This document shows, piece after piece, positions 12,460 through 33,589 of a DNA stretch of 53,873 nt. Below the pieces are notes generated by a model. The model was given only the letters and a program-made list of their open reading frames with translations. It was not told the DNA's origin and did not search any database. This DNA is from Oscillospiraceae bacterium. Lineage in GTDB: Bacteria > Bacillota > Clostridia > Oscillospirales > Oscillospiraceae. The stretch spans positions 1-53,873 of the forward strand of contig JAFZDL010000088.1 of NCBI GenBank assembly GCA_017561205.1, written 5' to 3'. A program made the translations under genes and the position numbers. How positions within the stretch are numbered: position 1 is the first letter of the stretch; every line of letters begins with the position of its first letter.

Positions 12460-12486
12460 TTAATCGAGGGGTTTCATCGTGGGGAT
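12460..12486 (-). repeat. att site 1 (outer end of element A), lysS 3'-end copy
   Basis: Minus strand reads ATC CCC ACG ATG AAA CCC CTC GAT TAA, i.e. I-P-T-M-K-P-L-D-stop, the LysRS C-terminus. It shares AATCGAGGGGTTTCAT with the site at 22,094, and the inner ATGAA block with the real lysS end at 33,563. Confidence 0.85.
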
Positions 12487-12601
12487 TATCTTATAAAATG
12501 CACGAAAACTGGAAGTGGACATTGCATTTTGTGTTTGACCCTCTAAAAACCGCAAGATATTGTGTTATTTCGATTGTCGGTTTGCTGTTGGCAAACTCGG
12601 C

Positions 12602-12645
12602 GTGTTGTGGCACAACACAATGAAAATTGGTAAAATATTTGGTAC
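12602..12645. repeat. Element A left-end integrase arm site and palindrome
   Basis: Perfect palindrome GTGTTGTG-G-CACAACAC (12602-12618) followed by AAAATTGGTAAAATATTTGG (12623-12642) then TAC. The second motif recurs at the right end of the element (22,012). An outer inverted repeat AAAATGCA (12495-12502) / TGCATTTT (12533-12540) lies between it and att1. Confidence 0.6.
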
Positions 12646-12655
12646 GGTTGGTACA

Positions 12656-13930
12656 TCAGGTTAGTTTGATTTTTCCTTGCAGACTAACAAATGCTTGTTG
12701 CTTCTTTTGGGTAGTCAAATCGGTATATACATCTAAAGTTGTAGAAATATCGGCGTGCCCCATAATCTCTTGAATGAATTTTAATGTAACCTCGTCACCT
12801 TGATTTTCGCAAAGGCGAGTACAGAAAGTATGGCGTAGATTATGTACGGTAAAATGCGGAATTAGCAACGGCGTTCTTCCCTCTGCCTGTGCTGTTTTCG
12901 TTTCCTCGGCGTTATATTCTTTATAGATACGCTCAATCGCCCTGTTTATACAATGTGCCGAGAGCACATCACCAAAACGATTTTTGAATATAAAGCCGGA
13001 ATATCCATCAATAACAGTATGGTTATAGCCATCAAATTTTTGATAGTTATATTCCGTAATTAACGCTTCCTTTACCTCGTCAAACATCGGAACACTACGC
13101 ACACCGGCTTTTGTCTTTGGCGTGGTAATATGAAATTCGCACTTGCCACTATCCTGTTGGCGGTAAATCAAGTTATGATTTATACTAATCAATTTGTTTT
13201 CAAAATCACAATCTTCCCAACGCAAACCGATAATTTCACCCACCCTACATCCAGTACCGAGAAGAACAGTAAAGACAGGCATCCAATGCTTATACACCTT
13301 TGAATTAGCAACATAGTCTATAAAAGCCGCCTGTTGCTCCTCTGTAAGTGCTTTGCGTTTTGGCTTGTCCCAATCCCTACGGCTCTTAATTTCGCTCATA
13401 ACGCCTTTTGTGGGGTTCTTGCGGATATAATCATCACGCACCGCCGTTTCAAAGATGGGGTGTAAAATCGTGTTGATTACTTCCATACTGTTTGGCTTAA
13501 AGCCTTTTTCGTCAATCAACGAATGATACAGCTTTTTAATATCGCTGTATTTGATACTTGACAGCTTCTTTTTACCCAATCCATTACTGATATATTTTCT
13601 GTACATATACTTATAATTTGTTCGGGTGGATTGCTTTAACGGTCTTTCTTCAATGTAAACAGCAAAGAAATCATTTAGTATTGTTCTCTGTGCCGCCACG
13701 GTGTTTATGCCGTCCTCTCTGTCACGCTCTATCCGTTTTTCCATCTCACGCAGACATTCTGTATGCTCTTTTCTTGGCGGCGTTATATCGGTCTCTGTCA
13801 GCCGCCAAGAATAAACGCTTCTTGATACCCCCTTTTGGTCTATATACCTATATTCGTATCTGCCGGAACTCTTTTGATATTCTCCGTTTCGTAATACCCT
13901 GTTCCGATTATCATATCGTTTCTGTGCCAT
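12656..13930 (-). CDS. Tyrosine integrase of element A (Tn916-type)
   Basis: Site-specific recombinase expected to integrate and excise element A at the lysS 3' end. The 424 residues comprise an N-terminal arm-binding domain (YEYRYIDQKGVSRSVYSWRL), a SAM-like core-binding domain (about 80-180) and a catalytic domain. All catalytic residues are present: Arg229, His363-x-x-Arg366-His367, His392 and Tyr402. A longer frame reaches 13999, but AAAGGAG precedes the ATG at 13930. It lies directly inside att1. It is clearly related to the element B integrase but not a near-identical copy, consistent with shared target choice. Confidence 0.95.
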   Translation of the reverse strand: MAQKRYDNRNRVLRNGEYQKSSGRYEYRYIDQKGVSRSVYSWRLTETDITPPRKEHTECLREMEKRIERDREDGINTVAAQRTILNDFFAVYIEERPLKQSTRTNYKYMYRKYISNGLGKKKLSSIKYSDIKKLYHSLIDEKGFKPNSMEVINTILHPIFETAVRDDYIRKNPTKGVMSEIKSRRDWDKPKRKALTEEQQAAFIDYVANSKVYKHWMPVFTVLLGTGCRVGEIIGLRWEDCDFENKLISINHNLIYRQQDSGKCEFHITTPKTKAGVRSVPMFDEVKEALITEYNYQKFDGYNHTVIDGYSGFIFKNRFGDVLSAHCINRAIERIYKEYNAEETKTAQAEGRTPLLIPHFTVHNLRHTFCTRLCENQGDEVTLKFIQEIMGHADISTTLDVYTDLTTQKKQQAFVSLQGKIKLT

Positions 13931-14522
13931 AAAACTCCTTTCGTTCTTGACACACGATATAGCATAAGCATTATACCATATCGCATACCAAAAATACAAT
14001 GAAATACATTAAATTTGATACTTATCAAAAAGACTATCAAAACTCCGCTGTTATGGGATTTTATTGATGTGCTCATTTCAATCACAGAAAACACTTGCAC
14101 TCAAAACCCCATAGTAATCGAAAGTTTATATGCTCTTTTTTATGCTTTATTCAATGGTAAATCGTTGTCTTGCAACATATTTTTAATTCCCACGCATAAA
14201 GTTGACGATTTACTTTTTGGATATTGCCACGGTGTACTATGGAAGATATACCCCATAGCCACCGTGTTTTTTCTTGGATTATCGCATTTTCCCTTATCGC
14301 TCTTGTTCTCATATCTGCTATAAGATAGATATACTCGCACACTGTAAAATTGCGTTAATCCGTTGTGCCGTAACGCTTTGCAGGCATTCACATCATTTCA
14401 AAAAATGCAAGTAAGAAAACCATATAAAACCATTCTAAAATACGCTTGTTATGGACTTTTGCTCAACAAACAGCTTGTTTCATAAAATGCAAGCAAACGG
14501 CTGTTATGGTCTTTTGAGAATG
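13931..14522. repeat. 592-bp gene-free tract with three repeated motifs
   Basis: No convincing gene. Three copies of a roughly 20-bp motif with core TGTTATGG then TTTT: 14045-14066, 14442-14464 and 14497-14517. Two AAAATGCAAG blocks (14403 and 14484) precede copies 2 and 3. A terminator-like hairpin is at 14228-14272. The tract lies just 3' of the possible initiator gene, so iteron-like or recombination-accessory roles are conceivable but untested. Confidence 0.45.
14228..14272 (+). terminator. Terminator-like hairpin in gene-free tract
   Basis: CACGGTG...CTATGG / CCATAG...CACCGTG followed by TTTTTT on the plus strand. No gene ends here on that strand, so it may end an unannotated short RNA. 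Confidence 0.5.
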
Positions 14523-15443
14523 TTATTTACAAAACGCACCTAAAATTTCAACCTGTTTATAGTTTGACCCGCAGTACAAAATATGTGGGTTGATACATAT
14601 CTTTGCTCCGGCTTTGTTGATACCGTCATAAGCTATTGCACAAAAACGCTCTTGTTTTCCGTCCACCTCAAAGCTCACATCACGATATATAGCTAACAGC
14701 TTATTGATGTGCAACACATCGTATCCTATCAATCTGCAAAATTCCGCTACCGATAGCAACTCCAATTTTTCTATGTCCGTTTCTGTAGGGTTGTAACATA
14801 GCAAATTGTATTCGATATTGATATATGGGAGTAACTTAAAGAAATACCCTAATTGCCGATGATTGCCCCTTGCCGTAGTTTCATACAGCGTTCTGACACC
14901 GTTGGTATAAATCTTTTGATACCGAGTGTATTCCGCAGAGTGCTTAATATGCCCTCTCCGAAAAATGTTTTCATTTGTGAATATCAAGCCGCTTTCCGCT
15001 TCAACAATATATTCCGGACTAACCTCTTTCCAAAAGCGAAAAACGGTTGCTTTCGATAATCCTAACACTTGGGGTAAATCCTTGTAGTAGATGGGTGTTC
15101 TTTGCGTTAACATCAATTTGTTGCTTTCAAAACCTGTAAAGGTATTTAGATATATAAGGCGTGTCACCGTTTCGGGAGCGATACCAACAAACCGTTCATT
15201 TGTTGGAACAAAAAAATAATTGCCTAACGGCTTATTTGCCGCCCTACTAAAGCTTCTTTCTGCCTCACGCTGCTTGCGTTCCCGATATGCCATCTGTTGT
15301 TCGGGGGTATAAAAAATAGTCCCTATCGGTGCTTCAATAACAGTTGATTGTCGCACCTCTCCTGTTGACCGTTCTATAGCCAACCGCTGACCTGTACTGT
15401 CAGTTATGTATTCATAACCCTTTAGTTCGTTTATGTTTATCAC
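14523..15443 (-). CDS. Possible winged-helix replication/regulatory protein of element A
   Basis: A protein of about 306 residues that I do not recognise with certainty. A helix-turn-helix-like segment reads YYKDLPQVLGLSKATVFRFWKEV. A Lys/Arg/Glu-rich stretch (YRERKQREAERSFSRAANK) lies near the N-terminus. The C-terminal half is mixed alpha/beta (LLSVAEFCRLIGYD). Plasmid-type initiators often have this layout, and the repeats just downstream would fit an origin. That is inference. The start is uncertain: the frame is open to a GTG at 15479, and the GTG at 15443 is chosen to limit overlap with the upstream gene. Neither has a good ribosome site. Confidence 0.6.
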   Translation of the reverse strand: MININELKGYEYITDSTGQRLAIERSTGEVRQSTVIEAPIGTIFYTPEQQMAYRERKQREAERSFSRAANKPLGNYFFVPTNERFVGIAPETVTRLIYLNTFTGFESNKLMLTQRTPIYYKDLPQVLGLSKATVFRFWKEVSPEYIVEAESGLIFTNENIFRRGHIKHSAEYTRYQKIYTNGVRTLYETTARGNHRQLGYFFKLLPYINIEYNLLCYNPTETDIEKLELLSVAEFCRLIGYDVLHINKLLAIYRDVSFEVDGKQERFCAIAYDGINKAGAKICINPHILYCGSNYKQVEILGAFCK

Positions 15444-15633
15444 CTCTGTACTTTTCTTGTGTTTTCTCGTTGAATACACTCATATATCTATCTGCACATT
15501 TGCCGCAGATACGCAGTTTCAATTCCTCTCCGTCATTTTCGCTACCATAATTGCACCGCAAATTCAAGGAAGATAGTACCATTTCATAGCCACCGCAGAT
15601 TTCGCATATAAAATGCGTGTTTTGTACGCTCAT
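15412..15633 (-). CDS. Small zinc-ribbon-like protein
   Basis: A 73-residue hypothetical protein. Two Cys pairs, FICEICGG near residue 9 and RICGKCADRY near residue 45, look like a treble-clef/zinc-ribbon pair. The C-terminus is strongly basic (KYRGDKHKRTKGL), suggesting nucleic-acid binding. The ATG at 15633 follows AAAGGCGGTGAT. Its 3' end overlaps the next gene in another frame, so the two are probably co-translated. No named family is assigned. Confidence 0.65.
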   Translation of the reverse strand: MSVQNTHFICEICGGYEMVLSSLNLRCNYGSENDGEELKLRICGKCADRYMSVFNEKTQEKYRGDKHKRTKGL

Positions 15634-15733
15634 ATCATCACCGCCTTTCTTCGTAAATTGTTTCATCACCCCACAAGTGCACATTTACTATGGGTCAATA
15701 CGGAACGCCGCAAAGGGTGTACCGAAAAGAAAA

Positions 15734-15782
15734 AAGCCGCACAACACAAGATGGGGATTACCCATTCTGTGAAGTGCGACTT
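15734..15782 (-). terminator. Terminator of the secreted-protein/XRE operon
   Basis: Long minus-strand hairpin with outer arms AAGTCGCAC / GTGCGGCTT and inner pairs ATGGG/CCCAT, followed by TTTTTTC. It lies 130 bp after the stop at 15913. Confidence 0.7.
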
Positions 15783-15912
15783 ATCTTTTAACTATTGTTT
15801 TCGTGCGTACTCATTATTAACTTTTCGTCTGCTTAATTATATCAAAATTTTGAAGTTCTGTCAATGAAGCCCCTTGTTGCGGCACAACGCCCGATTGTAA
15901 ACGATTTGTAAA

Positions 15913-16416
15913 TTACTCCCAATACTCGTCGATAATGACCTCATATTGCATTCTTCCTTCGTAGATACCGGCTTTTGCAATATCCGTATCACCTTGTACG
16001 CTAACACCAAACGAAGCACCCGCCGTTCCATCTTCTGATATAGATGAGCTTGTAATTCTCGCCAAATATGGTGAATACTGCGTTACTTCCGTGCCATCTT
16101 GTGCGGTGAATTGAACATTAAATACATTATCACTATTAGGATGAGTAAGAGAAATAGCATTGTTTTCGTTAAGGTTTGTAATCTTAACTTTAATTGTCTC
16201 ACCAATAGCAACATTGGCATCGCTGACCATTATGCTCCAAGTTTCAGGATTTTCCAATTCAATTATTGACGGGATAGATATAGTACAAGTGCTATAAACC
16301 CTTTTGCTGATAACACTTTCGCCGTTGGCAGAATACGGACAATCAGCCGCAAAAGCTGACATAGGCATAGCCAACAGCAACGCCGCACACATAAGCATAC
16401 ATAAAATCTTTTTCAT
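15913..16416 (-). CDS. Secreted beta-sandwich-like protein of element A
   Basis: A 167-residue exported protein. A clear signal peptide (1-23, ending MSAFA-AD) is followed by a domain with alternating hydrophobic strands: CTISIPSIIELE, WSIMVSDANVAIGETIKVKITNLN and the final MQYEVIIDEYW. The pattern resembles small surface beta-sandwich proteins of Firmicutes (WxL/camelysin-like), but I cannot name the family. The preceding gene codes for a membrane-anchored partner of related style (IQIPAVTGLNMRAG), 15 bp upstream, so they probably act together at the cell surface. Confidence 0.75.
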   Translation of the reverse strand: MKKILCMLMCAALLLAMPMSAFAADCPYSANGESVISKRVYSTCTISIPSIIELENPETWSIMVSDANVAIGETIKVKITNLNENNAISLTHPNSDNVFNVQFTAQDGTEVTQYSPYLARITSSSISEDGTAGASFGVSVQGDTDIAKAGIYEGRMQYEVIIDEYWE

Positions 16417-16431
16417 AATGACTACCTCTTT

Positions 16432-16923
16432 CTATTGTGAATTTATTTCTAAAACAACATTACTGCCGTTTAGTTGCGTTTTGCCGTCCAAAGCATAACA
16501 GTTGTATATCATACGGCAATTACGATATAAACCCCGCTGTAGCTCCTGTGACAGCGTTATAGCGGTTATATGCTCACCTGGTGCAAGCATACCCGACTTG
16601 TATATCACGGTATCATCCGACAGGCAAAGCGTTATTACAAAGTAACAGCTATTCTCATTTGGGTTGTAGAAATCTACTGTCTGTTCAAGCTGTCCCGCTC
16701 GCATATTCAAACCTGTAACAGCGGGGATTTGTATTCTGCCATTGTTATCTCCGGCGGGTACAAAATCCAACACCTTATCCGTTGTGCTTCCTGTAGTGCT
16801 GTCGGTGCCGCTCGGTGGGGGCGTAGAGCGGTTACAGTACCGCAAGCTGATAATCAGCATTATCAAAATAACGATAGCGGCGGTTATGTATAGAATTGTC
16901 CGCAGTTTCTTATTCTTCATCAT
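16432..16923 (-). CDS. Membrane-anchored hypothetical protein of element A
   Basis: About 163 residues: a short basic N-terminus (MMKNKKLR), one membrane helix (about 8-28), a Ser/Thr/Gly linker (about 34-55) and an extracytoplasmic domain with two Cys pairs. The start overlaps the end of the XRE gene by 14 bp. A longer frame to 16953 exists, and ATGs at 16923 and 16920 both fit; none has a strong ribosome site, so coupling to the XRE gene is likely. Its operon with an XRE regulator and a secreted protein is reminiscent of element cargo that alters the surface, but no function is known. Confidence 0.65.
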   Translation of the reverse strand: MMKNKKLRTILYITAAIVILIMLIISLRYCNRSTPPPSGTDSTTGSTTDKVLDFVPAGDNNGRIQIPAVTGLNMRAGQLEQTVDFYNPNENSCYFVITLCLSDDTVIYKSGMLAPGEHITAITLSQELQRGLYRNCRMIYNCYALDGKTQLNGSNVVLEINSQ

Positions 16924-17248
16924 CGTAAACACTTTCATCGTCATACTGTGCAAGCCGCCTATTCCGCACGCTCATTGAAGCCACAAGCTCCGTGACTAAT
17001 GTAGCTTCTGCCGCCGTCAAATATGTAAGGTCTATGGATACGGTGTCCGTTCGTCCAAGAAGATAATCCGTTGACACGCAGTATAGATTTGCGAATTTCA
17101 GTAATACCTCAAAAGACGGTTGCCGTAAATCATTTTCGTATGCAGATATGGTGGACTTTGTTACACCTATCATTTTTGCCACTTGCTCTTGTCGCAAGTG
17201 CTTGCTAACTCTTAACTCCCGTAGCCGGATAGATAAATCAAGTATCAT
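16910..17248 (-). CDS. XRE-family transcriptional regulator
   Basis: A 112-residue Cro/CI-type repressor. The helix-turn-helix fills residues 8-62 (LRELRVSKHLRQEQVAKMIG, VTKSTISAYENDLRQPSFEVL, CVSTDYLLGRTD). An acidic tail follows (DDESVYDDEE). Its own promoter contains a perfect 8-5-8 inverted repeat, so it is probably autoregulated. It is first gene of the operon with the membrane and secreted proteins, which it presumably controls. Confidence 0.9.
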   Translation of the reverse strand: MILDLSIRLRELRVSKHLRQEQVAKMIGVTKSTISAYENDLRQPSFEVLLKFANLYCVSTDYLLGRTDTVSIDLTYLTAAEATLVTELVASMSVRNRRLAQYDDESVYDDEE

Positions 17249-17271
17249 TGTGCTTCACCTCGCACACAACA

Positions 17272-17302
17272 ATTATACTCATTTTCGATTGCTTATCGAA
17301 AA
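17272..17302 (-). promoter_or_regulatory. Promoter and operator of the XRE operon
   Basis: Perfect inverted repeat TTTTCGAT-TGCTT-ATCGAAAA (17282-17302) covers the -35 position. TATAAT lies on the minus strand at 17272-17277, 23 nt before the ATG at 17248. This suggests negative autoregulation. Confidence 0.7.
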
Positions 17303-17344
17303 CTTTAGGTTGCGTTTTGCTGACTTTCTCCCATAACAACAAAA

Positions 17345-17375
17345 AAGCCGCATAACCCATTACGGTTACACGGCT
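17345..17375 (-). terminator. Terminator after the small HTH gene
   Basis: Minus-strand stem AGCCGTGTAACC / GGTTATGCGGCT with a short loop and TTTTTTG behind it, ending the transcript of the 77-residue HTH gene. Confidence 0.75.
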
Positions 17376-17412
17376 CAAAAAAGTATTGGATTTAACAACG
17401 CTGTGGGGGCGG

Positions 17413-17646
17413 TCATTCTTCATCCACATATTCCAAGAAGTCACCCGGCTGACAAGAGAGTAAAGCACAAATCTGTGCAATATTTGCCCAACTGATAGGC
17501 TCGTTCTTCCTTAGCTTTTGGATAGTGCTTTCAGCTAACATTTTTTCTTTGCGGAGAGTATTCGTATTTGCCCCCTTATCTTTTAGAGCTTTCAGCACAT
17601 CAATCTTGTATCTAAGATTTGCGGTAGGCTTTTCGATTGCTGACAT
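17413..17646 (-). CDS. Small Cro/CI-type HTH regulator
   Basis: A 77-residue single-domain regulator of the HTH_26-like class: KIDVLKALKDKGANTNTLRK, then ESTIQKLRKNEPISWANIAQ, then CQPGDFLEYV. The ATG at 17646 follows GAGGTG; a longer frame to 17673 lacks a ribosome site. It is divergent from the coiled-coil/SprT genes across a region with four copies of an 18-bp palindrome, making it the best candidate for the protein that binds them. It would act as the lysogeny-type switch of element A. Confidence 0.82.
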   Translation of the reverse strand: MSAIEKPTANLRYKIDVLKALKDKGANTNTLRKEKMLAESTIQKLRKNEPISWANIAQICALLSCQPGDFLEYVDEE

Positions 17647-17796
17647 TATAAACACCTCAACTTTCCTAATCATTTACTGTATGGGAGAAAAAGCGACTTG
17701 TCTCAAATAGAAAGTGGATTGCGGTGCAAATACCATAACGCCCCGCCCCACTACTTGATACACCTTTTCTATTGTAAAACATTGTATCACAAAAAC

Positions 17797-17908
17797 TACA
17801 CGAAAACAAGTGTAATATTGCACAAAAATATACACGAATATTTGTGTAATTTTTGCACGAATAAAAGTGTAATTTTCTATTGACATTACACGAATATCGG
17901 TGTATAAT
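17797..17908. promoter_or_regulatory. Four-operator switch region with divergent promoters
   Basis: Four 18-bp sites of the form TACAC-8nt-GTGTA: 17797-17814, 17831-17848, 17854-17871 (first base pair degenerate) and 17887-17904. Start-to-start spacings are 34, 23 and 33 bp, close to whole helical turns. Site 4 fills the spacer of a perfect plus promoter, TTGACA (17880-17885), 17 bp, TATAAT (17903-17908). Site 1 overlaps a possible minus promoter (TTGTTT, 17 bp, TACAAT). Bound repressor would block both. Confidence 0.8.
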
Positions 17909-17991
17909 TAGGGTACAGTACAGGGGCAGACCAACCGCAACGGACACGCTCCACACGCTGAATACAAAGTATTAAAGGAGAACAAAAAACA

Positions 17992-18267
17992 ATGTCAACA
18001 CACGAAATGGAAAGCAAGATTGCAAAACTGCAAGAATGGGAAGCATTAGCCGCTGAAGCTCACGCAGAAGCGGAAGCGTTAAGGGATGAAATCAAAGCCG
18101 AAATGCTTACCAGGGAGACGGAAGAAATGGAAGCCGGACGATTTATTATCCGTTGGACTTCGGTACTGTCAAACCGCTTTGATACTACAACCTTTAAGAA
18201 AGACCACGCCGATATGTACAAGCAGTACACAAAGCAGACCGCAAGCCGCCGATTTAGTATCGCATAA
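17992..18267 (+). CDS. Small coiled-coil hypothetical protein
   Basis: A 91-residue protein of unknown function. Residues 5-45 are a Glu/Ala-rich helix with coiled-coil periodicity (KIAKLQEWEALAAEAHAEAE). A short basic C-terminal part follows (FKKDHADMYKQYTKQTASRR). AAAGGAG precedes the ATG. It is first gene downstream of the operator-controlled promoter, about 85 nt from the -10, so it is probably an early, repressor-controlled element gene. The layout resembles small phage accessory proteins, but no family is claimed. Confidence 0.75.
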   Translation: MSTHEMESKIAKLQEWEALAAEAHAEAEALRDEIKAEMLTRETEEMEAGRFIIRWTSVLSNRFDTTTFKKDHADMYKQYTKQTASRRFSIA

Positions 18268-18423
18268 AGAAAGCCCCTTGTACAACACGCCGACCAAAGC
18301 AAGAGTACAAGAGACTTTACCCACAGCCACAGCGGGAGCGGGTACAAATATTATATCGTATCCGCTCCCTAAAATCAATACAAACGGATGAATTATCCAA
18401 AGAAGAAAAGGAGCGTTTACATT

Positions 18424-19098
18424 ATGAAACAGATTGACAAAATGAGCAGATTGACCGGAGAGCTTGAAAAGTGTTTCCGCTTACTCAATCAAGACTTTTT
18501 CAACGGCGAATTACCTACCCCCATTATCACAGTTATTCCCACGCCCAGAGCATACGCTCATTATGTACCCTTTGACATTTGGGATACAAGGGACAGCAAA
18601 AAAAGAGAAATCAACATAGCAAGCGGTACGCTTGACAGACCACTTGAAAACATCATAGCAAGTTTACTTCACGAAATGGTTCACTTTTATGATGATGTTA
18701 TATTAAACATTCAAGATGTATCCCGCAAGGGACAGTACCACAACAAACGCTTTGCGGAACAAGCGGAGAAAAGAGGACTAATCGTTACCCGCTCCGAAAA
18801 ATATGGATGGGCACACACCGCACCCGCTGACCGTCTGCTTGAATGGGTACTTGACCACAACGAACTGAGAGAGGTTGAAATGTGCAGAGCAACCCCCACC
18901 TTTGCCGCTGTCGGCATTGGCACACACGCAAGCAACGGCGGGGAGCTTCGCCCCATAATTACCACAAGCAACAGCCACCACAGGACATACCGCTGTCCCT
19001 GTTGTGGTAACAGCGTGAGAGCCACAAAGCAAGTCAACATCATATGTGGTGATTGTATGGAGCGTATGATATTAAAGGGGGCGTATGTAAATGCTTGA
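18424..19098 (+). CDS. SprT-like zinc metalloprotein
   Basis: A 224-residue SprT-like protein with a gluzincin HEMVH site (83-87) and a third ligand probably in GQYHNKRFAEQAEKRG. A C-terminal zinc ribbon reads CPCCGN...CGDCM. SprT/Spartan proteins degrade DNA-protein crosslinks, and small homologues are common on Firmicutes mobile elements. The ATG at 18424 has AAAAGGAG upstream; an earlier in-frame ATG at 18388 lacks one. A GGGAGCGG/CCGCTCCC hairpin (18334-18369) precedes it. A role in element DNA processing is inference. Confidence 0.85.
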   Translation: MKQIDKMSRLTGELEKCFRLLNQDFFNGELPTPIITVIPTPRAYAHYVPFDIWDTRDSKKREINIASGTLDRPLENIIASLLHEMVHFYDDVILNIQDVSRKGQYHNKRFAEQAEKRGLIVTRSEKYGWAHTAPADRLLEWVLDHNELREVEMCRATPTFAAVGIGTHASNGGELRPIITTSNSHHRTYRCPCCGNSVRATKQVNIICGDCMERMILKGAYVNA

Positions 19099-19189: not shown

Positions 19190-19312
19190 GCTACAGCCTA
19201 TCCTTACACGCAAAAAGTGCCCGAAAATCCGTCAGTATGATATTGCATATTCATCACCTTGACATTTCGTAGGGCACATCTAAGATTTCATTTATACAAA
19301 GGAGCGTTATAT

Positions 19313-19891: not shown

Positions 19892-19947
19892 TCCCCCTTG
19901 CTTTAGCCTATAAGTTTGCAATTTGTTGTATATTAGTTTGCGTTCTG

Positions 19948-27131: not shown

Positions 27132-27240
27132 TTATATCACTCCTTTAATTTTCTGATATAAATATGTTAAAAGGATTATTTTTACAAACGAAAAAATAAT
27201 GTAGCAAGGTAGGCAATTTTTTTGCTGCCGCAAAAATTCC

Positions 27241-27305
27241 TCCTTGGTCTGCCGACACCTAAAAGGTGTATACACCTTTACCGTGTGGATGCTTCGCCCG
27301 TGTGG
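27241..27305. other. Candidate oriT upstream of mobV
   Basis: Perfect 18-bp palindrome AAAGGTGTATACACCTTT (27262-27279) followed at once by two direct CCGTGTGG repeats (27281-27288 and 27298-27305), about 130-170 bp before mobV. A short inverted repeat directly upstream of the relaxase gene is the usual MobV oriT layout; the nick position is not predicted. Confidence 0.55.
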
Positions 27306-27315
27306 AGGAAGATAC

Positions 27316-27407
27316 ATGAGGAAATACAACAAAATTGAATCAACAGCCAAAAACACCGCCTTTTTCATCAAAAGCGGTGTTTTTCATTTTTACTCATATC
27401 TTTTTTA
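27316..27407 (+). repeat. Repeat copy 1 at left edge of cargo block
   Basis: About 85 bp nearly identical to 31,296-31,388: only three changes across the last 75 bp. It contains AACACCGCC...GGCGGTGTT-type arms with T-rich flanks. Direct orientation. Together the copies bracket the lipoprotein/sigma-factor block. Confidence 0.85.
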
Positions 27408-27408
27408 G
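27316..27408 (+). CDS. Possible 30-residue peptide in repeated cassette
   Basis: Short frame with a strong site, GGAGGAA, 5 nt before the ATG. The peptide runs MRKYNKIESTAKNTAF and then FIKSGVFHFYSYLF. A second copy at 31,296 keeps ESTAKNTAF-Y-IKSGVFHFYSYLF, with two of three base changes silent. The same DNA also forms an ACACCGC/GCGGTGT hairpin, so it may simply be a terminator repeat. Confidence 0.35.
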   Translation: MRKYNKIESTAKNTAFFIKSGVFHFYSYLF

Positions 27409-27416
27409 TAATAAAA

Positions 27417-27483
27417 GTATCATATAGATGATATTTTTCAAAGTATCACCTTGCTGATATCAAATGCATCATCTAAGTGATAC
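27417..27483. promoter_or_regulatory. Three 18-bp palindromic operator-like sites
   Basis: GTATCATATAGATGATAT (27417-27434), GTATCACCTTGCTGATAT (27443-27460) and GCATCATCTAAGTGATAC (27466-27483), consensus GTATCA-6nt-TGATAC, with starts 26 and 23 bp apart. They lie between mobV/oriT and the cargo genes and may be bound by an element regulator such as the XRE protein at 30,933. Confidence 0.65.
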
Positions 27484-27543
27484 TAAATCGCTAAAAATGC
27501 AACAAGGTTTCGATTCAAACAATTTTGCAGCGAAAAAGGCATA

Positions 27544-27580
27544 AAAAAAGATATGCAGAATTTTTCTGCATATCTTTTTT
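27544..27580 (-). terminator. Terminator of the cargo operon
   Basis: Perfect 17-bp stem AAAAAAGATATGCAGAA / TTCTGCATATCTTTTTT with a 3-nt loop, 2 bp after the stop at 27583. One arm (AAAAAAGATATGCAGAA) recurs alone at 32,606. Confidence 0.9.
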
Positions 27581-27582
27581 GC

Positions 27583-28644
27583 TTAATTCTCTTGATAAAC
27601 CGTGCCTTCATAAACACTATCAAATCTGAACGAACCGTCTTCTTCATTGAAGACCACACGAACATCATAGTTCCACCAACCGAGGTCAACATTAGTTTTC
27701 AGATTGTACTCGTTTTCCTTGTCCTCGTTTCTGGTGCAAACCACATCAGAATCCAACACAACCGCTCCGCTATTATCTTTTACGGTAATGTGACCCGTTG
27801 TATTGTACAAGAAACCCTTGTTTAAAGTAATGGTATAGTTGTTACCGCCATTACTGCCAGTCCAAGTGGTATCCTTTGCAAGTTCGTAAGTATTTATCTC
27901 TTCAAATGTGTAGTTTACAACAGACCACTCTTTTGTGTCCGTATTCTTTTCGTAATATACAACAAGTGTGCCTTCCTGAATCAGACCATTTTTCGCACTG
28001 CTTTGCACCTTATTATGAACACTGCCTTTGGTTTTTTCGTATTGGTCTATTTCCTCACCGATAAAAGACTTATATTCTTCACCAAGGTTTTGCTCTGTTA
28101 CATATTGATTCCAGAGTGCTTTGTGGTCAAAGTTTTCCTTTTTGATATAATCAGGAGAAAGTGAAGGGAAAATTACATACAACAAAACTTGTAAAATCGT
28201 CAGACCAATAGCAACTATGGTTGCAATCTTAACCAGTTTTTTTGTAATATCAATGTGCTTCTCATTATTGGTGAAAATTCTGATTAAATCATAAACAATA
28301 GGTTTTACAAGCAAATGTAACAAGGTAATAAAAGCAATTACACCGCTTGCCCATCCATAATCAGGGAAAATCCAACCAATAATCAGAGAGGGAATCAGCG
28401 GGAGCATAATCATAAATATTGCCCCAAATATATTTTCAAAGGCAAATGCTTTGAGGGACATAACCCTTTCTTTGGGTTCACCATCAAAGGGTGTTTCTTC
28501 GCTCTGTATTTCAGTCCCCAAACCTATCGCTCTTAGCAGGTATATGATGATTACACCCGCCCATATTGTTTTAAAGATAGCAGAACTGACAACAAACAGA
28601 ATTACTTGCCATATTAGTCGCTTAATCGCTTGTTTTCGTACCAT
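27583..28644 (-). CDS. Polytopic membrane protein with extracytoplasmic tail
   Basis: 353 residues, not recognised. About four hydrophobic helices lie in the first 170 residues (near 10-36, 68-90, 98-115 and 139-160). A hydrophilic, beta-rich region of about 180 residues follows, with WTGSNGGNNYTITLNKGFLY and a closing DVRVVFNEEDGSFRFDSVYEG. That last motif echoes the end of the sigma-fusion protein (EEDQFYFDTGPFEA), so the two proteins may share a sensing domain type. It is last gene of the cargo operon, 20 bp after the lipoprotein gene. Confidence 0.75.
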   Translation of the reverse strand: MVRKQAIKRLIWQVILFVVSSAIFKTIWAGVIIIYLLRAIGLGTEIQSEETPFDGEPKERVMSLKAFAFENIFGAIFMIMLPLIPSLIIGWIFPDYGWASGVIAFITLLHLLVKPIVYDLIRIFTNNEKHIDITKKLVKIATIVAIGLTILQVLLYVIFPSLSPDYIKKENFDHKALWNQYVTEQNLGEEYKSFIGEEIDQYEKTKGSVHNKVQSSAKNGLIQEGTLVVYYEKNTDTKEWSVVNYTFEEINTYELAKDTTWTGSNGGNNYTITLNKGFLYNTTGHITVKDNSGAVVLDSDVVCTRNEDKENEYNLKTNVDLGWWNYDVRVVFNEEDGSFRFDSVYEGTVYQEN

Positions 28645-28664
28645 AAACTATGCTCTCCAATCTT

Positions 28665-29297
28665 TTATTTTTCAACTGTAAAAGCAAAAGAATCAATGAT
28701 AGGTTCATCAGAGGGAGCACCTCTAAATACAACGGCATATTCTTCTGAAATTAAAGCGAAATAAAAACTGGACATTCTATAACTATAAACTTTGTATGTA
28801 ATACCAGTTTTTGAAGTGAAATCCTTATCGTAGGTAATTTGATGCTGTAGCTCACAAGTAGTAAAGGTTTCATATGCTTCGTTGCTAATAAAACCAAACT
28901 CCAGCTCCTGCTTACTATTAACAACAACATTTAAACCTAGATACTCTAAGGTATCAAATTTTAATCTCAAAACATCAACGGTATTATTCTGTCCTGTCGG
29001 GTCTGGATAAGTGAAACTCCTTGCTTTGCCCACACTGTAATTGCTATCAAGATTGTGCTTTACGATAATATTTTTTTCATCAGGAACAACAAGACAAGCA
29101 ATTTTATTTGCATACTCATCTTCTACAACTTCATTCTTTGTATCACTTTCCGTTGAATTAGTTGTAGTGGATGTGTCTGTATCTGTAATGGTCGTTCCCG
29201 AATTGTTATTATCAACAGAAGTGTCTGTTTTACCACCACAGGCACATAAACCAAATACCATAATCAAGCATAATGCCAAACATAATAATTTTTTCAT
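28665..29297 (-). CDS. Cargo lipoprotein
   Basis: 210 residues with a typical lipoprotein signal peptide (MKKLLCLALCLIMVFGLCAC, lipobox LCAC, Cys20) and a Thr/Ser/Asp-rich linker (about 25-55). A single globular domain follows (ITYKVYSYRMSSFYFALISEEYAVVFRGAPSD). No family recognised. It lies in the same operon as the membrane protein and the membrane-fused sigma factor, so it is a candidate part of an envelope-sensing set. Confidence 0.78.
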   Translation of the reverse strand: MKKLLCLALCLIMVFGLCACGGKTDTSVDNNNSGTTITDTDTSTTTNSTESDTKNEVVEDEYANKIACLVVPDEKNIIVKHNLDSNYSVGKARSFTYPDPTGQNNTVDVLRLKFDTLEYLGLNVVVNSKQELEFGFISNEAYETFTTCELQHQITYDKDFTSKTGITYKVYSYRMSSFYFALISEEYAVVFRGAPSDEPIIDSFAFTVEK

Positions 29298-29347
29298 TTT
29301 ATATTACCTCCAAAATTTTTTACAATATAAATTCCTTTTTCTGTACT

Positions 29348-29461
29348 CTACAATTTTAGTGCTATTAGTATTTTTCGAATTTGCTCTACTCTCTCAGGCG
29401 GGAGTTTGTTCCGTATGGAATCCCATAGAAGAATGTAGTACAAATTGCTGTGTTCTCGCAT
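29348..29461 (-). CDS. 37-residue conserved-looking small protein
   Basis: Short frame with an excellent ribosome site (AAGGAGG, 7-8 nt before the ATG). The peptide is MREHSNLYYILLWDSIRNKL and then PPERVEQIRKILIALKL: one amphipathic and one basic helix, no signal peptide. It sits between the sigma-fusion gene and the lipoprotein in the same orientation. Spacing and Shine-Dalgarno strength argue that it is translated; function unknown. Confidence 0.5.
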   Translation of the reverse strand: MREHSNLYYILLWDSIRNKLPPERVEQIRKILIALKL

Positions 29462-29530
29462 ATGTTTTTCCTCCTTACACTTATAGGAGAAACGAGAGCA
29501 CCGTTTGGTTTTATTTTTTTGAAAAATTTT

Positions 29531-30766
29531 TTATTTCTTTTTTAAAACTGCTTCAAATGGACCTGTATCAAAATAGAATTGGTCTTCTTCGGGTTGATAT
29601 CTTAGGGTGAATTCTTTATATCCAGCATAATCATCTGACCATCCTGCTATTTCCTCATCCAGTTTTATATCATAGAAGGTAGAACCCGCATGCAACATTT
29701 CCGCAGGTCTCCCTGTTCCTGTAAAATGTCGTGAATAATTTGTCCCATCAACAGCATTTACAACCAATCTACCCTCAATACTATCCTCATCCATTTGAGA
29801 GATAACTAATGTAAATTTGTTTTCATTTGATAGGTTTAGTCCAATATTGATTCCGCCTTGACCTTCCCATACCTGCACCAGTTGACCTGCTGATATTTGA
29901 CCGCCCTCGTTTGTAGTTGCATCAGGTTTGTTGACGATGTTCACAACCGCAACCGTGCCACCAACTGCAATCGTTGCCGCTGCAATTGCTGCAACAATCT
30001 TTTGCCAAAGATTCCAAACGATTTTTGTTCCGCTCTTAACCAAAGACGATAAGGACAATTTCGCTCCTGTTGCGGTGGAAACTCCTGTTGCAACGGTTTG
30101 TGCCGTTGTCGCTGACATAGCACTCGCACCAAAATCCGATGCAAACAACCACAACAGAAGAGGAAGAACACCAGCACAACGAAGTTTGACATTGTGTTTC
30201 TTCTCATAGGATTCTACGGATGCTTTGATTGCTTTTCTCGCATAGTTCAGTCTGCTCTTAACTGTTCCTTCTGTAACACCTTGAATCTCGGCAATTTCCT
30301 TGACGGAAAGTTCGTCATAGTAATACAGGATAACGGCAGTTCGCTGTTCTGCGGGAAGACTATCGACAATATCAAGAATCGTCTTCTTGAAATCGTCTTT
30401 GTCGAGGTTTTCCTCAGGGATGAACTCCGTTCTTTCTTCTTCAAGGGTATCAAAGATGGTAGTTCCATCTTCGTTCTCGTCTACTGTAGCTTCTCGATTT
30501 TGCTTTTTCAGGTGTTGCAAACAATGTCTGTATGTAATTTGCCTTGACCAAGCAGGATAAGCGACAGGGTCATTCAAGGAGTTTATGTTCTGAAAAATAG
30601 TAACAAATGTCTCCTGAGTGACATCTGCTGCTAAGGTTTCATCCTTAATTGTCTTTAAAGCGAAGTAATAAACATCGTTGTAAGTTTCAGTAAAGAGGTC
30701 ATTTAATGCCTGATTATCTCCCGCTTGTGCTTTCGCCACAAGGGAAGATAGATTCTCTTTTTGCAT
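29531..30766 (-). CDS. ECF-type sigma factor fused to a membrane helix and outer domain
   Basis: 411 residues. The first 180 are a sigma-70 family factor: region 2 (about 23-90, DVTQETFVTIFQNINSLND) and region 4 (about 137-178, ELSVKEIAEIQGVTEGTVKSRLN). A weakly hydrophobic stretch (199-212) follows, then a clear membrane helix (about 256-278). The roughly 130-residue extracytoplasmic domain begins near VWEGQGGINIG. Such fusions put promoter selection and signal sensing in one chain, without a separate anti-sigma factor. It has its own consensus promoter and heads the cargo operon. Confidence 0.88.
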   Translation of the reverse strand: MQKENLSSLVAKAQAGDNQALNDLFTETYNDVYYFALKTIKDETLAADVTQETFVTIFQNINSLNDPVAYPAWSRQITYRHCLQHLKKQNREATVDENEDGTTIFDTLEEERTEFIPEENLDKDDFKKTILDIVDSLPAEQRTAVILYYYDELSVKEIAEIQGVTEGTVKSRLNYARKAIKASVESYEKKHNVKLRCAGVLPLLLWLFASDFGASAMSATTAQTVATGVSTATGAKLSLSSLVKSGTKIVWNLWQKIVAAIAAATIAVGGTVAVVNIVNKPDATTNEGGQISAGQLVQVWEGQGGINIGLNLSNENKFTLVISQMDEDSIEGRLVVNAVDGTNYSRHFTGTGRPAEMLHAGSTFYDIKLDEEIAGWSDDYAGYKEFTLRYQPEEDQFYFDTGPFEAVLKKK

Positions 30767-30826
30767 ATTTCACCTCACAGTCCAGTTTGCAAATATACTA
30801 ACCGAAAAATATACATACTCTATCCT

Positions 30827-30855
30827 ATTATACTACTATGGTTGTAAATAGTCAA
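30827..30855 (-). promoter_or_regulatory. Sigma-A promoter of the sigma-fusion gene
   Basis: Minus strand TTGACT (30850-30855), 17 bp, TATAAT (30827-30832), about 60 nt upstream of the ATG at 30766. Direct ATAATTGA repeats near 30867-30884 lie between it and the divergent XRE gene. Confidence 0.8.
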
Positions 30856-30932
30856 TGTTTAGCAATCATAATTGATTATAATTGACCTCTGTTTTTAGTA
30901 CAATAATTGTAATGAGAAACGAGGTGAAGGAA

Positions 30933-31265
30933 ATGTATGAAGATGCACAGTTCCTAATGGATATGGGTGAGCGAATCGCCAAACGGAGGAAGGAACTTAA
31001 CCTAACACAAGAACAATTGGCGGAAAGCATCAATTTGAGCCTGCAATCCATTTCCTGCATTGAGTTGGGAAAGAAGGCAATCAGACCGCAAAATCTGGTC
31101 AACCTCTGCAACACCTTAAATATTTCTACCGATTACATATTAACTGGGAAAAAAGAGGTTAAACAATTAGAGGGTGTTTTCAAAAAATTAGCGGTACTGA
31201 GTGAAAGCGACTATACTATGGTTGAAAATCTGGTTGAGCATTTATATAAGAACAGCAAAAAATGA
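30933..31265 (+). CDS. XRE-family regulator of element B
   Basis: A 110-residue Cro/CI-like regulator. HTH residues lie at about 10-65: MGERIAKRRKELNLTQEQLA, ESINLSLQSISCIELGKKAI, ISTDYILTGK. The C-terminal 40 residues are helical (KLAVLSESDYTMVENLVEHLYK). The frame opens at 30882, but GAGGTGAAGG precedes the ATG at 30933. It is divergent from the sigma-fusion gene and may control that operon, and perhaps the GTATCA...TGATAC sites near oriT. Confidence 0.9.
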   Translation: MYEDAQFLMDMGERIAKRRKELNLTQEQLAESINLSLQSISCIELGKKAIRPQNLVNLCNTLNISTDYILTGKKEVKQLEGVFKKLAVLSESDYTMVENLVEHLYKNSKK

Positions 31266-31290
31266 CATCGTGTAAAACGGTGTCATTTTT
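31258..31290 (+). terminator. Terminator after the XRE gene
   Basis: AAAATGACATCG / CGGTGTCATTTTT with a TGTAAAA loop; the left arm includes the stop codon, and TTTTTCTTTT follows. Confidence 0.8.
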
Positions 31291-31295
31291 CTTTT

Positions 31296-31433
31296 ATGAG
31301 CAAATATAAAAACAACAATATTGAATCAACCGCAAAAAACACCGCCTTTTACATCAAAAGCGGTGTTTTTCATTTTTACTCATATCTTTTTTACAAGCAA
31401 ACAAAAACCATCATACTTATAATATCAAATTAA
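31296..31433 (+). repeat. Repeat copy 2 at right edge of cargo block
   Basis: Direct copy of 27,316-27,407 (shared part 31,296-31,388), continuing as a 45-codon open frame that starts MSKYKNNNIESTAKNTAF. No ribosome site precedes this copy's ATG, because the XRE terminator abuts it. Confidence 0.8.
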
Positions 31434-31450
31434 AACAGGTGGTGTTTTAT

Positions 31451-31636
31451 ATGGATACTAAACAAGCAGAAAACATAAACGATTGCTTCAAAAATATTCT
31501 TGAAGGAACGACTTGTCAGCTTGAGCTGAAACCCATACCAGTTTCAAATGCGGATTTCCCAAAAAGGAAGAAAAAGCGGAAAAAGAGGTATCGTTCAATA
31601 GGTTTGTTTTGGGATGGTTATGAAATTTTGATATGA
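31451..31636 (+). CDS. Small basic protein
   Basis: 61 residues: an acidic helical start (MDTKQAENINDCFKNILEG) and a strongly basic centre (FPKRKKKRKKRYRSIG), ending FWDGYEILI. AGGTGG lies 8 nt before the ATG at 31451; a longer frame to 31439 lacks a site. The charge pattern suggests RNA or DNA binding. It is the last gene before the structured-RNA tract. No family recognised. Confidence 0.55.
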   Translation: MDTKQAENINDCFKNILEGTTCQLELKPIPVSNADFPKRKKKRKKRYRSIGLFWDGYEILI

Positions 31637-31784
31637 GGAAATTTTCTTTCGATTTTCAAAACGATTAAACATACTTACTTTGCCATAATAAATATGGTTT
31701 GTGTGTGATGTGATAATATATCTAAGGGGTTAGACAAGTCACATTCTATTTATTTCCCCTCCTTCAAGTGATGTGGATTGTTGC

Positions 31785-31824
31785 AAAAAGGTCTTATCGG
31801 TTCTCGGACTGATAAGACCTTTTT
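31785..31824 (+). terminator. Strong terminator after the small basic gene
   Basis: AAAAAGGTCTTATC / GATAAGACCTTTTT, 14-bp perfect stem, 12-nt loop, then GTTTTT. Confidence 0.9.
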
Positions 31825-32055
31825 GTTTTTCTCGATTTTGAATTGACTTCTATCATACTAATATCACAACTAAATAAAAAAGACCTAATCGGTGCAAACG
31901 ATTAAGTCCAACGGGCAATATAGGAGAGATATATCACCCATACAATAATTATGTCAGATTCCTTTTGATTTTGTAATCAAGTAAAGATACATAAACCACC
32001 ATTGAATGTCTTATCTACCTATAAGGTCGGTAAGGCATTTTTTGTTTCTCTTTTA

Positions 32056-32460
32056 GGCGGTGAAATGGTAGTTAGACACCCTAAATATGCTACGGTTGGT
32101 CACCCCCGTTTGTAGAAAAAAGACTCGGCGGTTGAAGATTTGTTCGCTCTATTCAACTGTCGTCATTGGTTAATGTTTGGGAGTTTATATCACCAAGTAA
32201 ATAAAAGCAAACTCAAGGGCGGTATATTGGAAACGATATACCATTAGGATGCCGTGAAGATGATGACAAAGTCAAGTCCCCAAGGGCACGGTGCGGGAGA
32301 AGACGGTTACGAATGTATGAAGACTTTGTTCTGGCAATGAAAAAACCAGTTAGATAGGAGCGAACCCCAAAGAAGAAACCTCACGGGTCTATTGTCTAAC
32401 TCACCTGCTCTTTAGGTGAGTTATGCCCTTATGCTATTTCCTACGGGTCAGGTTCGAATT
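32056..32460 (+). ncRNA. Candidate large structured RNA
   Basis: At least eight complementary arm pairs in about 400 nt: GGTGA/TCACC (32059, 32100) enclosing GTAG/CTAC; GTTGAA/TTCAAC (32131, 32152); GAGTTT/AAACTC (32181, 32209); GGTATAT/ATATACC (32221, 32236); CCGTG/CACGG (32252, 32287); CAAAGTC/GACTTTG (32267, 32322); long-range CGAACC/GGTTCG (32361, 32451) around AACTCACCT/AGGTGAGTT (32398, 32414). AGTTAGA/TCTAACT offers an alternative pairing. Strand is assumed. Large ornate element RNAs (ROOL, GOLLD, HEARO) are comparison classes, but I cannot assign one. Confidence 0.5.
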
Positions 32461-32484
32461 TGAAAGGGGTTCTGAGTTGGTTGA

Positions 32485-32605
32485 TTTGGTTTCTCAAAAG
32501 GTTGTGTTTAGTTTCTAACAAAGGTTTGAGTTTAGTTTCTCAAAAGGTTTTTGAGTACAGTTTTACAAAAGGTCTTTGAGAAAAGTTTCTCAAAAAGGTT
32601 TTACA
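32485..32605. repeat. Five tandem 22-25-bp repeats (iteron-like)
   Basis: Units start at 32485, 32507, 32531, 32556 and 32581; core GTTTCTCAAAAGGTTTTTGAG-like, with an internal CTCAAAA/TTTTGAG inverted repeat in the best copies. The array is followed at 32606 by AAAAAAGATATGCAGAA, identical to one arm of the cargo terminator. Period near two helical turns suggests protein binding, as in plasmid iterons. Confidence 0.75.
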
Positions 32606-32736
32606 AAAAAAGATATGCAGAAAAAACATTTATCTATACACATCAATCATCTTTAATATGAACGGTTAAGTAAGTCACCAAAATATGACTTAATCGTAAA
32701 TACAATCCACGGTGGCGGAAAGGTATATAGTACACT

Positions 32737-33027
32737 ATGAAAACAAAACCAGAAAAACTTAGAACGGTTATCACACTAATTAAAAATGCAGAAGACGGAG
32801 ATAGACTTCCCAAAAGACAATTTAAAAGTTTACTTTATCAAAGAGTGCGACTTTGCAAAGAATTGGTTGACAGATTATTTGAAATCAACCGAGCAATTAA
32901 CTTTGCAGCAAAAAACAAAGAATATCGCTTACCATACTCAGAGTACAAATCCCTGTGCAACGAAAGGTATACTATCAGACAGGTTTTAAAGGAAGCAAAA
33001 TGGGAAATTTACAATTACAGTACATAA
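32737..33027 (+). CDS. Hypothetical basic helical protein
   Basis: 96 residues, Lys/Arg-rich and predicted all-helical (LPKRQFKSLLYQRVRLCKEL, IRQVLKEAKWEIYNY). GGAAAGG lies 10-12 nt before the ATG. It is the first gene after the tandem repeats, so it could bind them as an initiator-type or accessory protein. That idea rests on position and charge only. Confidence 0.6.
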   Translation: MKTKPEKLRTVITLIKNAEDGDRLPKRQFKSLLYQRVRLCKELVDRLFEINRAINFAAKNKEYRLPYSEYKSLCNERYTIRQVLKEAKWEIYNYST

Positions 33028-33031
33028 AATT

Positions 33032-33053
33032 AAGGCACGGTTTTCCGTGCCTT
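33032..33053. terminator. Bidirectional terminator
   Basis: AAGGCACGG-TTTT-CCGTGCCTT followed by AATTTTT, between convergent genes; the minus gene's stop codon forms part of the stem. Confidence 0.9.
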
Positions 33054-33363
33054 AATTTTTGCCATCCGTGAAGAAGGCATCCAGAACTATTGATGCAATT
33101 GGACTATAATAAGGGTCTAATTTACCCATATAGTTTACAGGTTTATCACTTAAAAACTTTTCTTCATATTTCTCAACAGTCTTTTGTTCCATTTCAGCAA
33201 ATAACTGTTTTTCGAAATCGGTCATTTGCGATACCTTTTTATGTTCGCTCTTTAATTGTCGTTGTGCTTGCAATCTCAAAATCTCTTCGGCATCACTTCT
33301 ACCTGTCTCGGTATTTACCTTGTTCATTAGTTTGTCTAAGTTTTTGTTGTTTCCTGTTGCCAT
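33052..33363 (-). CDS. Hypothetical small charged protein at element B right end
   Basis: 103 residues, not recognised. A helical, Lys/Glu-rich body (NLDKLMNKVNTETGRSDAEE, MTDFEKQLFAEMEQKTVEKYEEK) ends in a more hydrophobic tail (YSPIASIVLDAFF). The ATG at 33363 follows AGGAGTGATAT, the same leader type as mobV (AAGGAGTGATATAA), which hints at common regulation or a mobilization accessory role. A longer frame to 33381 has no site. Confidence 0.6.
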   Translation of the reverse strand: MATGNNKNLDKLMNKVNTETGRSDAEEILRLQAQRQLKSEHKKVSQMTDFEKQLFAEMEQKTVEKYEEKFLSDKPVNYMGKLDPYYSPIASIVLDAFFTDGKN

Positions 33364-33439
33364 AATATCACTCCTAATCATTTGGATTCTATAATAAGAA
33401 TGATAGGAAAGATTTTATTTCAAGCGACTAAAACACAGA

Positions 33440-33467
33440 AAAGGCATCACATTTCTGTGATGCCTTT
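33440..33467 (-). terminator. Element-supplied terminator for lysS
   Basis: AAAGGCATCACA / TGTGATGCCTTT with a 4-nt loop and TTTTCTG following on the minus strand, about 95 bp past the lysS stop. It replaces the native terminator now stranded at 12,417-12,452. Confidence 0.75.
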
Positions 33468-33482
33468 CGGGAAATTATAAGA

Positions 33483-33516
33483 AAGTTTGGGGTAAATAGG
33501 GGGTAAATACGATTTT
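33483..33516 (+). repeat. Element B right-end integrase arm site
   Basis: AAGTTTGGGGTAAATAGGGG then GTAAATACGATTTTC, a direct match to the left-end motif at 22,245. Confidence 0.65.
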
Positions 33517-33562
33517 CACAACCTATCAACACCCCGAAAACCCGCATAAATAAAGGGTTTTA

Positions 33563-33589
33563 TTAGTCCAACGGCTTCATTGTGGGGAA
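33563..33589 (-). repeat. att site 3, the functional lysS 3' end
   Basis: Minus strand reads TTC CCC ACA ATG AAG CCG TTG GAC TAA (F-P-T-M-K-P-L-D-stop). Compared with sites 1 and 2, the last codons are all synonymous alternatives, consistent with the element supplying the end of lysS. Confidence 0.85.

Follow-up and report, generated by a model that had tools for sequence, protein, structure and literature searches.

The 53,873-nt stretch analysed here (contig JAFZDL010000088.1 of the Oscillospiraceae bacterium assembly GCA_017561205.1, hereafter the window) belongs, as contig 88, to a fragmented genome of 1.8 Mb that is 83% complete. It carries lysS, the gene for lysyl-tRNA synthetase (LysRS), together with two displaced copies of the end of that gene. 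Very probably, two independent tyrosine-integrase elements, A and B, lie in tandem at a short core within lysS and arose by the mechanism outlined below. For the family as a whole, we lean towards a model in which the junction between the catalytic and tRNA-binding domains of LysRS serves as a platform for mobile elements. Elements of about 0.7 kb to about 100 kb or more would stack at this junction, and an insertion would either remove the tRNA-binding domain, leaving it as a separate open reading frame (ORF) with an ATG from the core, or replace it. The patchwork of fused and short LysRS proteins would then be largely the work of these elements.

A central feature of our model is that A and B each integrated at a core of about 16 bp, with arm sites near the core at both ends. 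The core, TCCCNACNATGAARCC, encodes PTMKP of LysRS. Strand exchange within the core would leave the final lysS codons and the stop codon to be supplied by the element and would push the previous copy outward. Because later elements could use any copy of the site, arrays would grow. In relatives whose LysRS has a domain past PTMKP, integration would cut the enzyme at the domain junction, and the element would either end the gene with PLD-stop or supply a tRNA-binding domain of its own.

The original prediction was that three sites encode PTMKPLD-stop in the lysS direction, and both pattern and six-frame searches bore this out. A degenerate pattern for MKPLD-stop matched the window exactly three times, on the minus strand at 12460, 22091 and 33563, a number reached in 0 of 100 shuffles. 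Matches to TMKPLD, PTMKP or MKPLD in a six-frame search of the window were confined to the same three places. The copy at 33563 is the true lysS end, and those at 22091 and 12460 are displaced. The sites and their flanks are as follows.

33563..35056, minus strand: lysS, class II lysyl-tRNA synthetase (Pfam tRNA-synt_2), short form ending PTMKPLD-stop
33563..33588, minus strand: att3, lysS-proximal attachment site; its post-core bases are the right end of element B
22091..22116, minus strand: att2, displaced PTMKPLD-stop copy between B and A (pattern search and comparison with G430, below)
12460..12485, minus strand: att1, far-end PTMKPLD-stop copy (pattern search)
12417..12452: terminator-like hairpin with arms CCCTATGAC and GTCATAGGG, adjoining tetR
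11868..12413, plus strand: gene for a TetR-type regulator, chromosomal flank

Of 102 site copies, 16 have the CCCTATGAC hairpin within 130 nt, compared with 28 hairpins in about 1.0 Mb of fetched loci; the hairpin is enriched near site copies, not general. The view that a synthetase gene rather than a tRNA gene is the target held for the window, in which ARAGORN found no tRNA genes. In many relatives the site is the interdomain junction rather than the 3′ end of lysS.

Each interval between the sites had also been claimed to contain its own integrase at the left edge and a distinct pair of arm repeats, as we indeed found. Element A has the following features.

12460..22090: element A, 9.6 kb, with integrase, helix-turn-helix (HTH) proteins, SprT-like protein and resolvase
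12623..12644, plus strand: left-end arm repeat of A, direct and imperfect
12656..13999, minus strand: IntA, tyrosine integrase of the same type as IntB, with three Tn916-Int-type domains
14523..15479, minus strand: protein matching phrog_9501 (unknown function)
18388..19098, plus strand: SprT-like protein (weak match, below Pfam's own cut-off)
19259..19891, plus strand: serine resolvase
22012..22033, plus strand: right-end arm repeat of A, direct and imperfect

The corresponding features of element B are listed below.

22091..33562: element B, 11.5 kb, with integrase, Tn916-type excisionase (Xis) and Mob_Pre relaxase
22245..22278, plus strand: left-end arm repeat of B, direct and imperfect
22691..24007, minus strand: IntB, tyrosine integrase with Integrase_DNA, SAM-like and Phage_integrase domains
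24424..24648, minus strand: Tn916-type excisionase (Tn916-Xis, E 5e-16)
25953..27131, minus strand: relaxase (Mob_Pre, E 1e-21)
29531..30766, minus strand: protein with extracytoplasmic function (ECF)-type sigma factor regions and a C-terminal extension
30882..31265, plus strand: HTH protein
33483..33516, plus strand: right-end arm repeat of B, direct and imperfect

The A arm AAAATTGGTAAA occurs exactly twice, at 12623 and 22012 (0.02 occurrences expected), and the B arm AAGTTTGGGGTA exactly twice, at 22245 and 33483 (0.00 expected). Over their greater length the arms are identical at 20 of 22 nt in A and 28 of 34 nt in B. IntA and IntB are 47-48% alike, and TGxR, HxLRH and MGH boxes are present in both. 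An integron was considered and rejected, as both integrases have a Tn916-type arm-binding domain and scored about 50-59 bits against the NCBIfam integron-integrase cut-off of 265 bits. Two of the proteins of A are of the HTH type. With an integrase, a relaxase and no type IV secretion families among its ORFs given to Pfam, from which some small ORFs were excluded, B qualifies as an integrative and mobilizable element (IME). Type IV secretion genes were likewise not found among the A and B ORFs given to Pfam, so neither is classed as an integrative and conjugative element (ICE). Two further repeats were seen in B. A 28-nt stretch is present in five imperfect copies spaced by 22-25 nt (32479-32602) and could be iterons or part of a transfer origin, and an 86-nt direct repeat (27322-27407 and 31308-31393), 94% alike, contains an inverted repeat.

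A scan of genome contigs with IntB identified one relative, 98% identical, in G430 (locus L087), a Clostridia metagenome-assembled genome from dairy cattle cecum. The order in G430 is lysS, a 13.3-kb element and then units of 2.37 and 2.07 kb, with PTMKP copies as the boundaries; neither small unit has an IntA- or IntB-like integrase. When the window and G430 are compared without gaps, identity rises from 0.42 in the final 300 nt of lysS to 0.91 in the first 200 nt past the core. The ends of B are 90.4% (right, 851 bp) and 90.8% (left, 5.5 kb) identical in the two genomes, and both matches reach the site copies; between them identity is 84% over 2.8 kb. The LysRS proteins are only 58% identical, and the GreA proteins 45%. 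The high identity of the B ends against the low identity of these proteins indicates that B moved between distant hosts and that its boundaries are the site copies. The presence of B with the same ends, and without A, in another lineage supports the prediction of two stacked site-specific elements at lysS. It also makes it very unlikely that A and B arrived together as one composite element with att2 as an internal relic. The shared orientation of A and B and the likeness of their integrases would fit a composite, but each has its own arm pair, and in G430 B is followed by other units, not by A.

Displaced copies from other genomes define the core. In 51 distinct copies, likeness to lysS starts at TC, two bases ahead of CCN, with each base present in 50 of 51; these two bases were outside our search patterns, whereas the later core bases were inside them. 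The next base outward has no majority, A being found in 23 of 51. The fused alleles of G093 and G020 (contig C240), in which the tRNA-binding domain is still attached, correspond to empty sites for the occupied loci of G020 and G058. To the left, the lysS-side copies match these alleles at 113-114 of 120 nt and the far copies at 37-38 of 120 nt; to the right, the values are 25-28 of 96 nt for the lysS-side copies and 83-86 of 96 nt for the far ones. The G020 assembly holds both an occupied (C4) and a fused (C240) lysS allele, perhaps from two strains. That the repeats are duplicated lysS ends from homologous recombination or decay, rather than attachment sites, is scarcely credible, because although lysS-like sequence upstream of PTMKP in two far copies (L101 3362 and G228:C22) implies that duplication does happen, likeness otherwise starts sharply at TC and the distance to the integrase is near-constant (193-237 bp in 14 of 17). 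The second copies of L101 (G051) and G228 were dropped as clean displaced copies on account of this upstream sequence.

Comparison across relatives shows the sites, the element boundaries, arrays, detached domains and, in two genera, what looks like one domain-bearing element end. The PTMKPLD pattern matched 71 of 136 same-genus genomes and its reversed control none of 136; a shorter pattern matched 48 of 101 genomes, with 2 of 101 for the reversed control. Fetching the contexts revealed a displaced site copy in 33 of the 136 genomes (G064 and G051 being doubtful), which supports the suggestion that lysS is a general hotspot in this lineage. The pattern overlooked the site in at least seven further genomes (G132, G019, G052, G102, G129, G076 and G118), each of which has a detached tRNA-binding domain there. 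Among 300 genomes sampled from the family, 110 contained the pattern, two its reversal and 30 an IntA-like integrase (E at most 1e-60). The pattern is also matched by five stretches of contigs in the IMG/VR viral collection (L159-L163).

Integrase loci were chosen by similarity to IntB alone, and the query's own locus was counted. A PTMKP copy was present downstream in 17 of 23 loci with at least 36.6% identity to IntB, at a distance of 193-237 bp in 14 and of 335, 368 and 579 bp in three. No copy was present downstream of the seven loci with 30.2% identity or less. These seven also stood apart in a quick integrase tree, in which 28 of the 35 other rows adjoin a site copy, several of the 35 having been picked for having one. 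At L200 (G278), L206 (G334) and L320-L322 (G166, G252 and G377) the integrase adjoins lysS but points towards it, i.e., these elements are integrated in the opposite orientation.

The position of the core within LysRS gives insertion a further consequence. In part of the genus LysRS runs on past PTMKP by about 150 residues that match Pfam tRNA_bind. A search with this fused protein matched lysS in 116 of the 136 genomes, of which 14 have a full-length fused gene and four a fused gene cut by the contig end (including G020:C240). A separate tRNA-binding domain that starts at the site was found in 10 genomes plus G076, 11 in all; G118 has a fused lysS as well. In G132, lysS ends with PTMKPLD-stop and the domain lies 34.0 kb further on, behind an integrase, and in G020 the distance from lysS to the domain is 17.8 kb. 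The separation is larger still in another genus: in G278, intervals of 99 and 13 kb put the domain 112 kb from lysS, and in its relative G334 an intact domain is found at 169 kb. Six genomes share the left end of one element type at 95-100% identity over 272 bp, with G019 as a seventh at 96-98% over 189 bp, and the adjoining domains that were compared differ at a synonymous divergence (dS) of 0.34-0.79; near-identical ends next to such different domains point to separate insertions. For the pairs tried, dN/dS of the detached domain was 0.03-0.16, a value in which selection before and after detachment is not separable and from which we draw no function for these domains. In same-genus genomes, MetRS-like ORFs (about 650-740 aa, named by length and domain) end in a domain with about 60-73% identity to the tRNA-binding domain of LysRS, which suggests that the domain was copied in the past; this paralogous domain is to be distinguished from that of LysRS.

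In a LysRS tree of 127 rows, for which no shuffle control was run, the state changes between fused and short at least 31 times, a count in which gain and loss are not separable and to which lysS transfer may add. Such a count would also fit a short ancestral LysRS that gained the tRNA-binding domain many times, perhaps via elements, some of which appear to carry the domain. We consider this rather unlikely, since the near tree relatives are fused in 7 of the 10 genomes with a short lysS and a detached domain (G020, G058, G132, G019, G278, G334 and G373), and the detached pieces retain the linker and an intact domain. Two of the seven, G278 and G334, fall in an unresolved group of four that includes one fused and one short row besides, and the remaining three genomes (G094, G102 and G103) have no fused sister in the tree.

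If insertion can detach the domain, an element may also replace it. We checked 12 fused-lysS genomes, eight of them chosen for a known or hinted second copy, and found a further separate tRNA-binding domain in eight and none in the other four. The second copy of G228 was discounted because lysS codons lie upstream of it, and the extra domain of G200 is in two fragments. The lysS contig of G166 carries the extra domain at a distance of 98.8 kb, with an integrase adjoining the lysS end. G377 and G252 belong to different genera and have identical 160-residue fused domains on catalytic parts that are 74% identical. Their DNA is 75-94% identical per 100 nt before the core and 98-100% identical for 900 nt after it; it is also 99-100% alike in the 600 nt ahead of the far copy and diverges thereafter. 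The detached domains of the two genomes are 64% and 67% identical to the fused ones. That of G252 is 96% identical to the fused domain of the same-genus G315, whereas that of G377 is only 88% and 77% identical to those of the same-genus G332 and G198, leaving its native origin less clear. The simplest explanation is that one element carried a domain of its own into both genera. The case for replacement comes from this pair, together with G166, whose domain is 92% identical.

Several observations weigh against the model as set out so far. No relaxase was found among the A proteins submitted to Pfam, NCBIfam and PHROGs, for which reason A is termed an integrative element rather than an IME, and no Xis was seen in A by eye. 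Immediately past the core, the window and G430 use different synonymous codons for LD-stop, which a simple crossover would not predict. Six of the 23 integrase loci with at least 36.6% identity to IntB have no PTMKP copy within 1.5 kb downstream. An exact empty site for the window was not found among the relatives examined. The original prediction had looked to an allele in which lysS directly adjoins the tetR terminator. The closest genomes in the LysRS tree, G065 and G060, are without A and B, but their lysS-tetR gap of about 1.34 kb contains a gene for a protein of 329 aa that by eye looks HTH-like, and no far copy of the site was seen; we therefore rejected them as a clean empty site. Nearly all of the genomes are fragmented assemblies, and in G377 and G252 lysS and the detached domain are on different contigs. 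Finally, excision and mobility of A and B, like any order of events in the window, are inferred from sequence comparison.

Units without an integrase of this type also lie between copies of the site. Adjacent site copies 0.66-3.9 kb apart were present in 15 cases on the contigs read, L086 and L101 being doubtful; the 659-bp pair of L086 is in question because its far copy encodes PIMKPLD and falls outside all end families. These small units have site copies at both ends, and a tblastn search with IntA and IntB (E 1e-6) found no integrase inside any of the 15; the relaxase check covers 10 proteins (Pfam). Those ten cargo proteins matched GIY-YIG, M48 peptidase, Fic, an ABC transporter pair, ATP-grasp, HTH-AAA-CYTH, methylase and DUF4153, with one protein lacking a match. 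In PADLOC, four of five cassette proteins matched defence models (UzuA, SoFic, a type IIG enzyme and a specificity subunit), a fraction that is not a rate as the five were picked by hand; five window proteins in the same run gave no match. In G146 a 5.5-kb unit (G146:C20:29320-36696) separates a fused lysS from another tRNA-binding domain, which is 95% identical to the fused one. By eye this unit encodes ABC transporter and MATE-like proteins, and it is without an IntA- or IntB-like integrase.

How such units move would depend on whether an integrase can act on a unit that carries none. Left ends of one family (N1) are common to units with unrelated cargo in different genomes (L051, L061, L062, L066 and L087), and a two-gene ABC unit recurs in G062 and G113 with ends that are 81% alike. 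Both findings suggest cassettes that may be mobilised in trans. Further left-end families consist of L041 with L073, and of L045, L105, L048 and L053. A DNA search of the 136 same-genus genomes with the N1 ends, aimed at a partner integrase, matched four genomes, and no integrase for this family was seen. We nevertheless give slightly better than even odds to the alternative that the units are dead remnants riding with an integrating neighbour, as do cis-mobilizable elements (CIMEs). By eye, L042 seems to retain an integrase fragment, its left end shares 94% identity over 135 bp with the left end of an element that has an integrase, and CIMEs of 1.2-13 kb are described for Streptococcus salivarius (PMC7563491).

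One feature of the window lies apart from lysS, an FMN riboswitch at 42600-42712 on the plus strand (Rfam RF00050, 107.6 bits).

Integration in protein genes is usually deemed harmless, the last codons being restored by the element. Our results suggest that this reaction can also deprive an essential tRNA synthetase of an entire domain or exchange that domain for another, possibly with effects on tRNA charging, and thus that mobile elements may set the architecture of a housekeeping enzyme. The occupied and fused alleles offer natural before-and-after pairs for probing the role of the tRNA-binding domain in LysRS. The comparison also connects the lysS integration site in gut Clostridia to the one used in enterococci and streptococci.

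As a target, lysS is known from earlier work on enterococcal vanD islands and on ICEs of streptococci (PMC8301612, PMC4701971, PMC7168690). In the portion of PMC8301612 seen, the vanD islands Tn6711-Tn6713 resemble A and B in lying at the lysS 3′ end and in having an integrase, no conjugation genes and a repeat that overlaps the core. This 13-bp repeat, TTCCCNACAATGA, was described in enterococcal lysS; its copies differ by one base, circular forms were detected by PCR and a Clostridiales origin was proposed. Unlike the elements of the window, these islands are 112-126 kb in length, and that text mentions neither a tandem array nor a tRNA-binding domain. The streptococcal lysS ICEs, including those of the S. 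suis vanG family, share with A and B a tyrosine integrase, the lysS 3′ end and repeats of 13-17 bp, but have a conjugation module that is absent from the scanned A and B ORFs, and no lysS array appears in the sections seen (PMC4701971, PMC7168690). Tn916 likewise shares the Integrase_DNA domain and, with B, Tn916-Xis; it differs in having a conjugation module, which the scanned ORFs lack, and in that the target of A and B is fixed. The CIMEs and composite arrays of S. salivarius resemble the units described here in their tandem arrangement between att copies, in their cargo and in that some lack an integrase, whereas their targets, as far as given in the excerpt, are rpmG, rpsI, fda and rplL; the units at lysS reach down to about 0.7 kb and share end families (PMC7563491).

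Beyond the window, three points look new: the integrase-less units, the site as an interdomain junction and the element-borne domain. Among the papers listed by our literature searches, judged from titles and the openings of abstracts, none dealt with a synthetase split or domain-swapped by an integrative element. The LysRS tail matches Pfam tRNA_bind, as do Trbp111, Arc1p and the C-terminal domains of MetRS (PMC11286949, seen in part). The fusions named there are those of MetRS, PheRS and TyrRS, with LysRS only for Entamoeba, whereas here a bacterial LysRS appears to be split or swapped. Tandem lysS-targeted elements such as those of the window are of a known kind, and the novelty of the wider system is that the site doubles as the junction between two domains of the enzyme.

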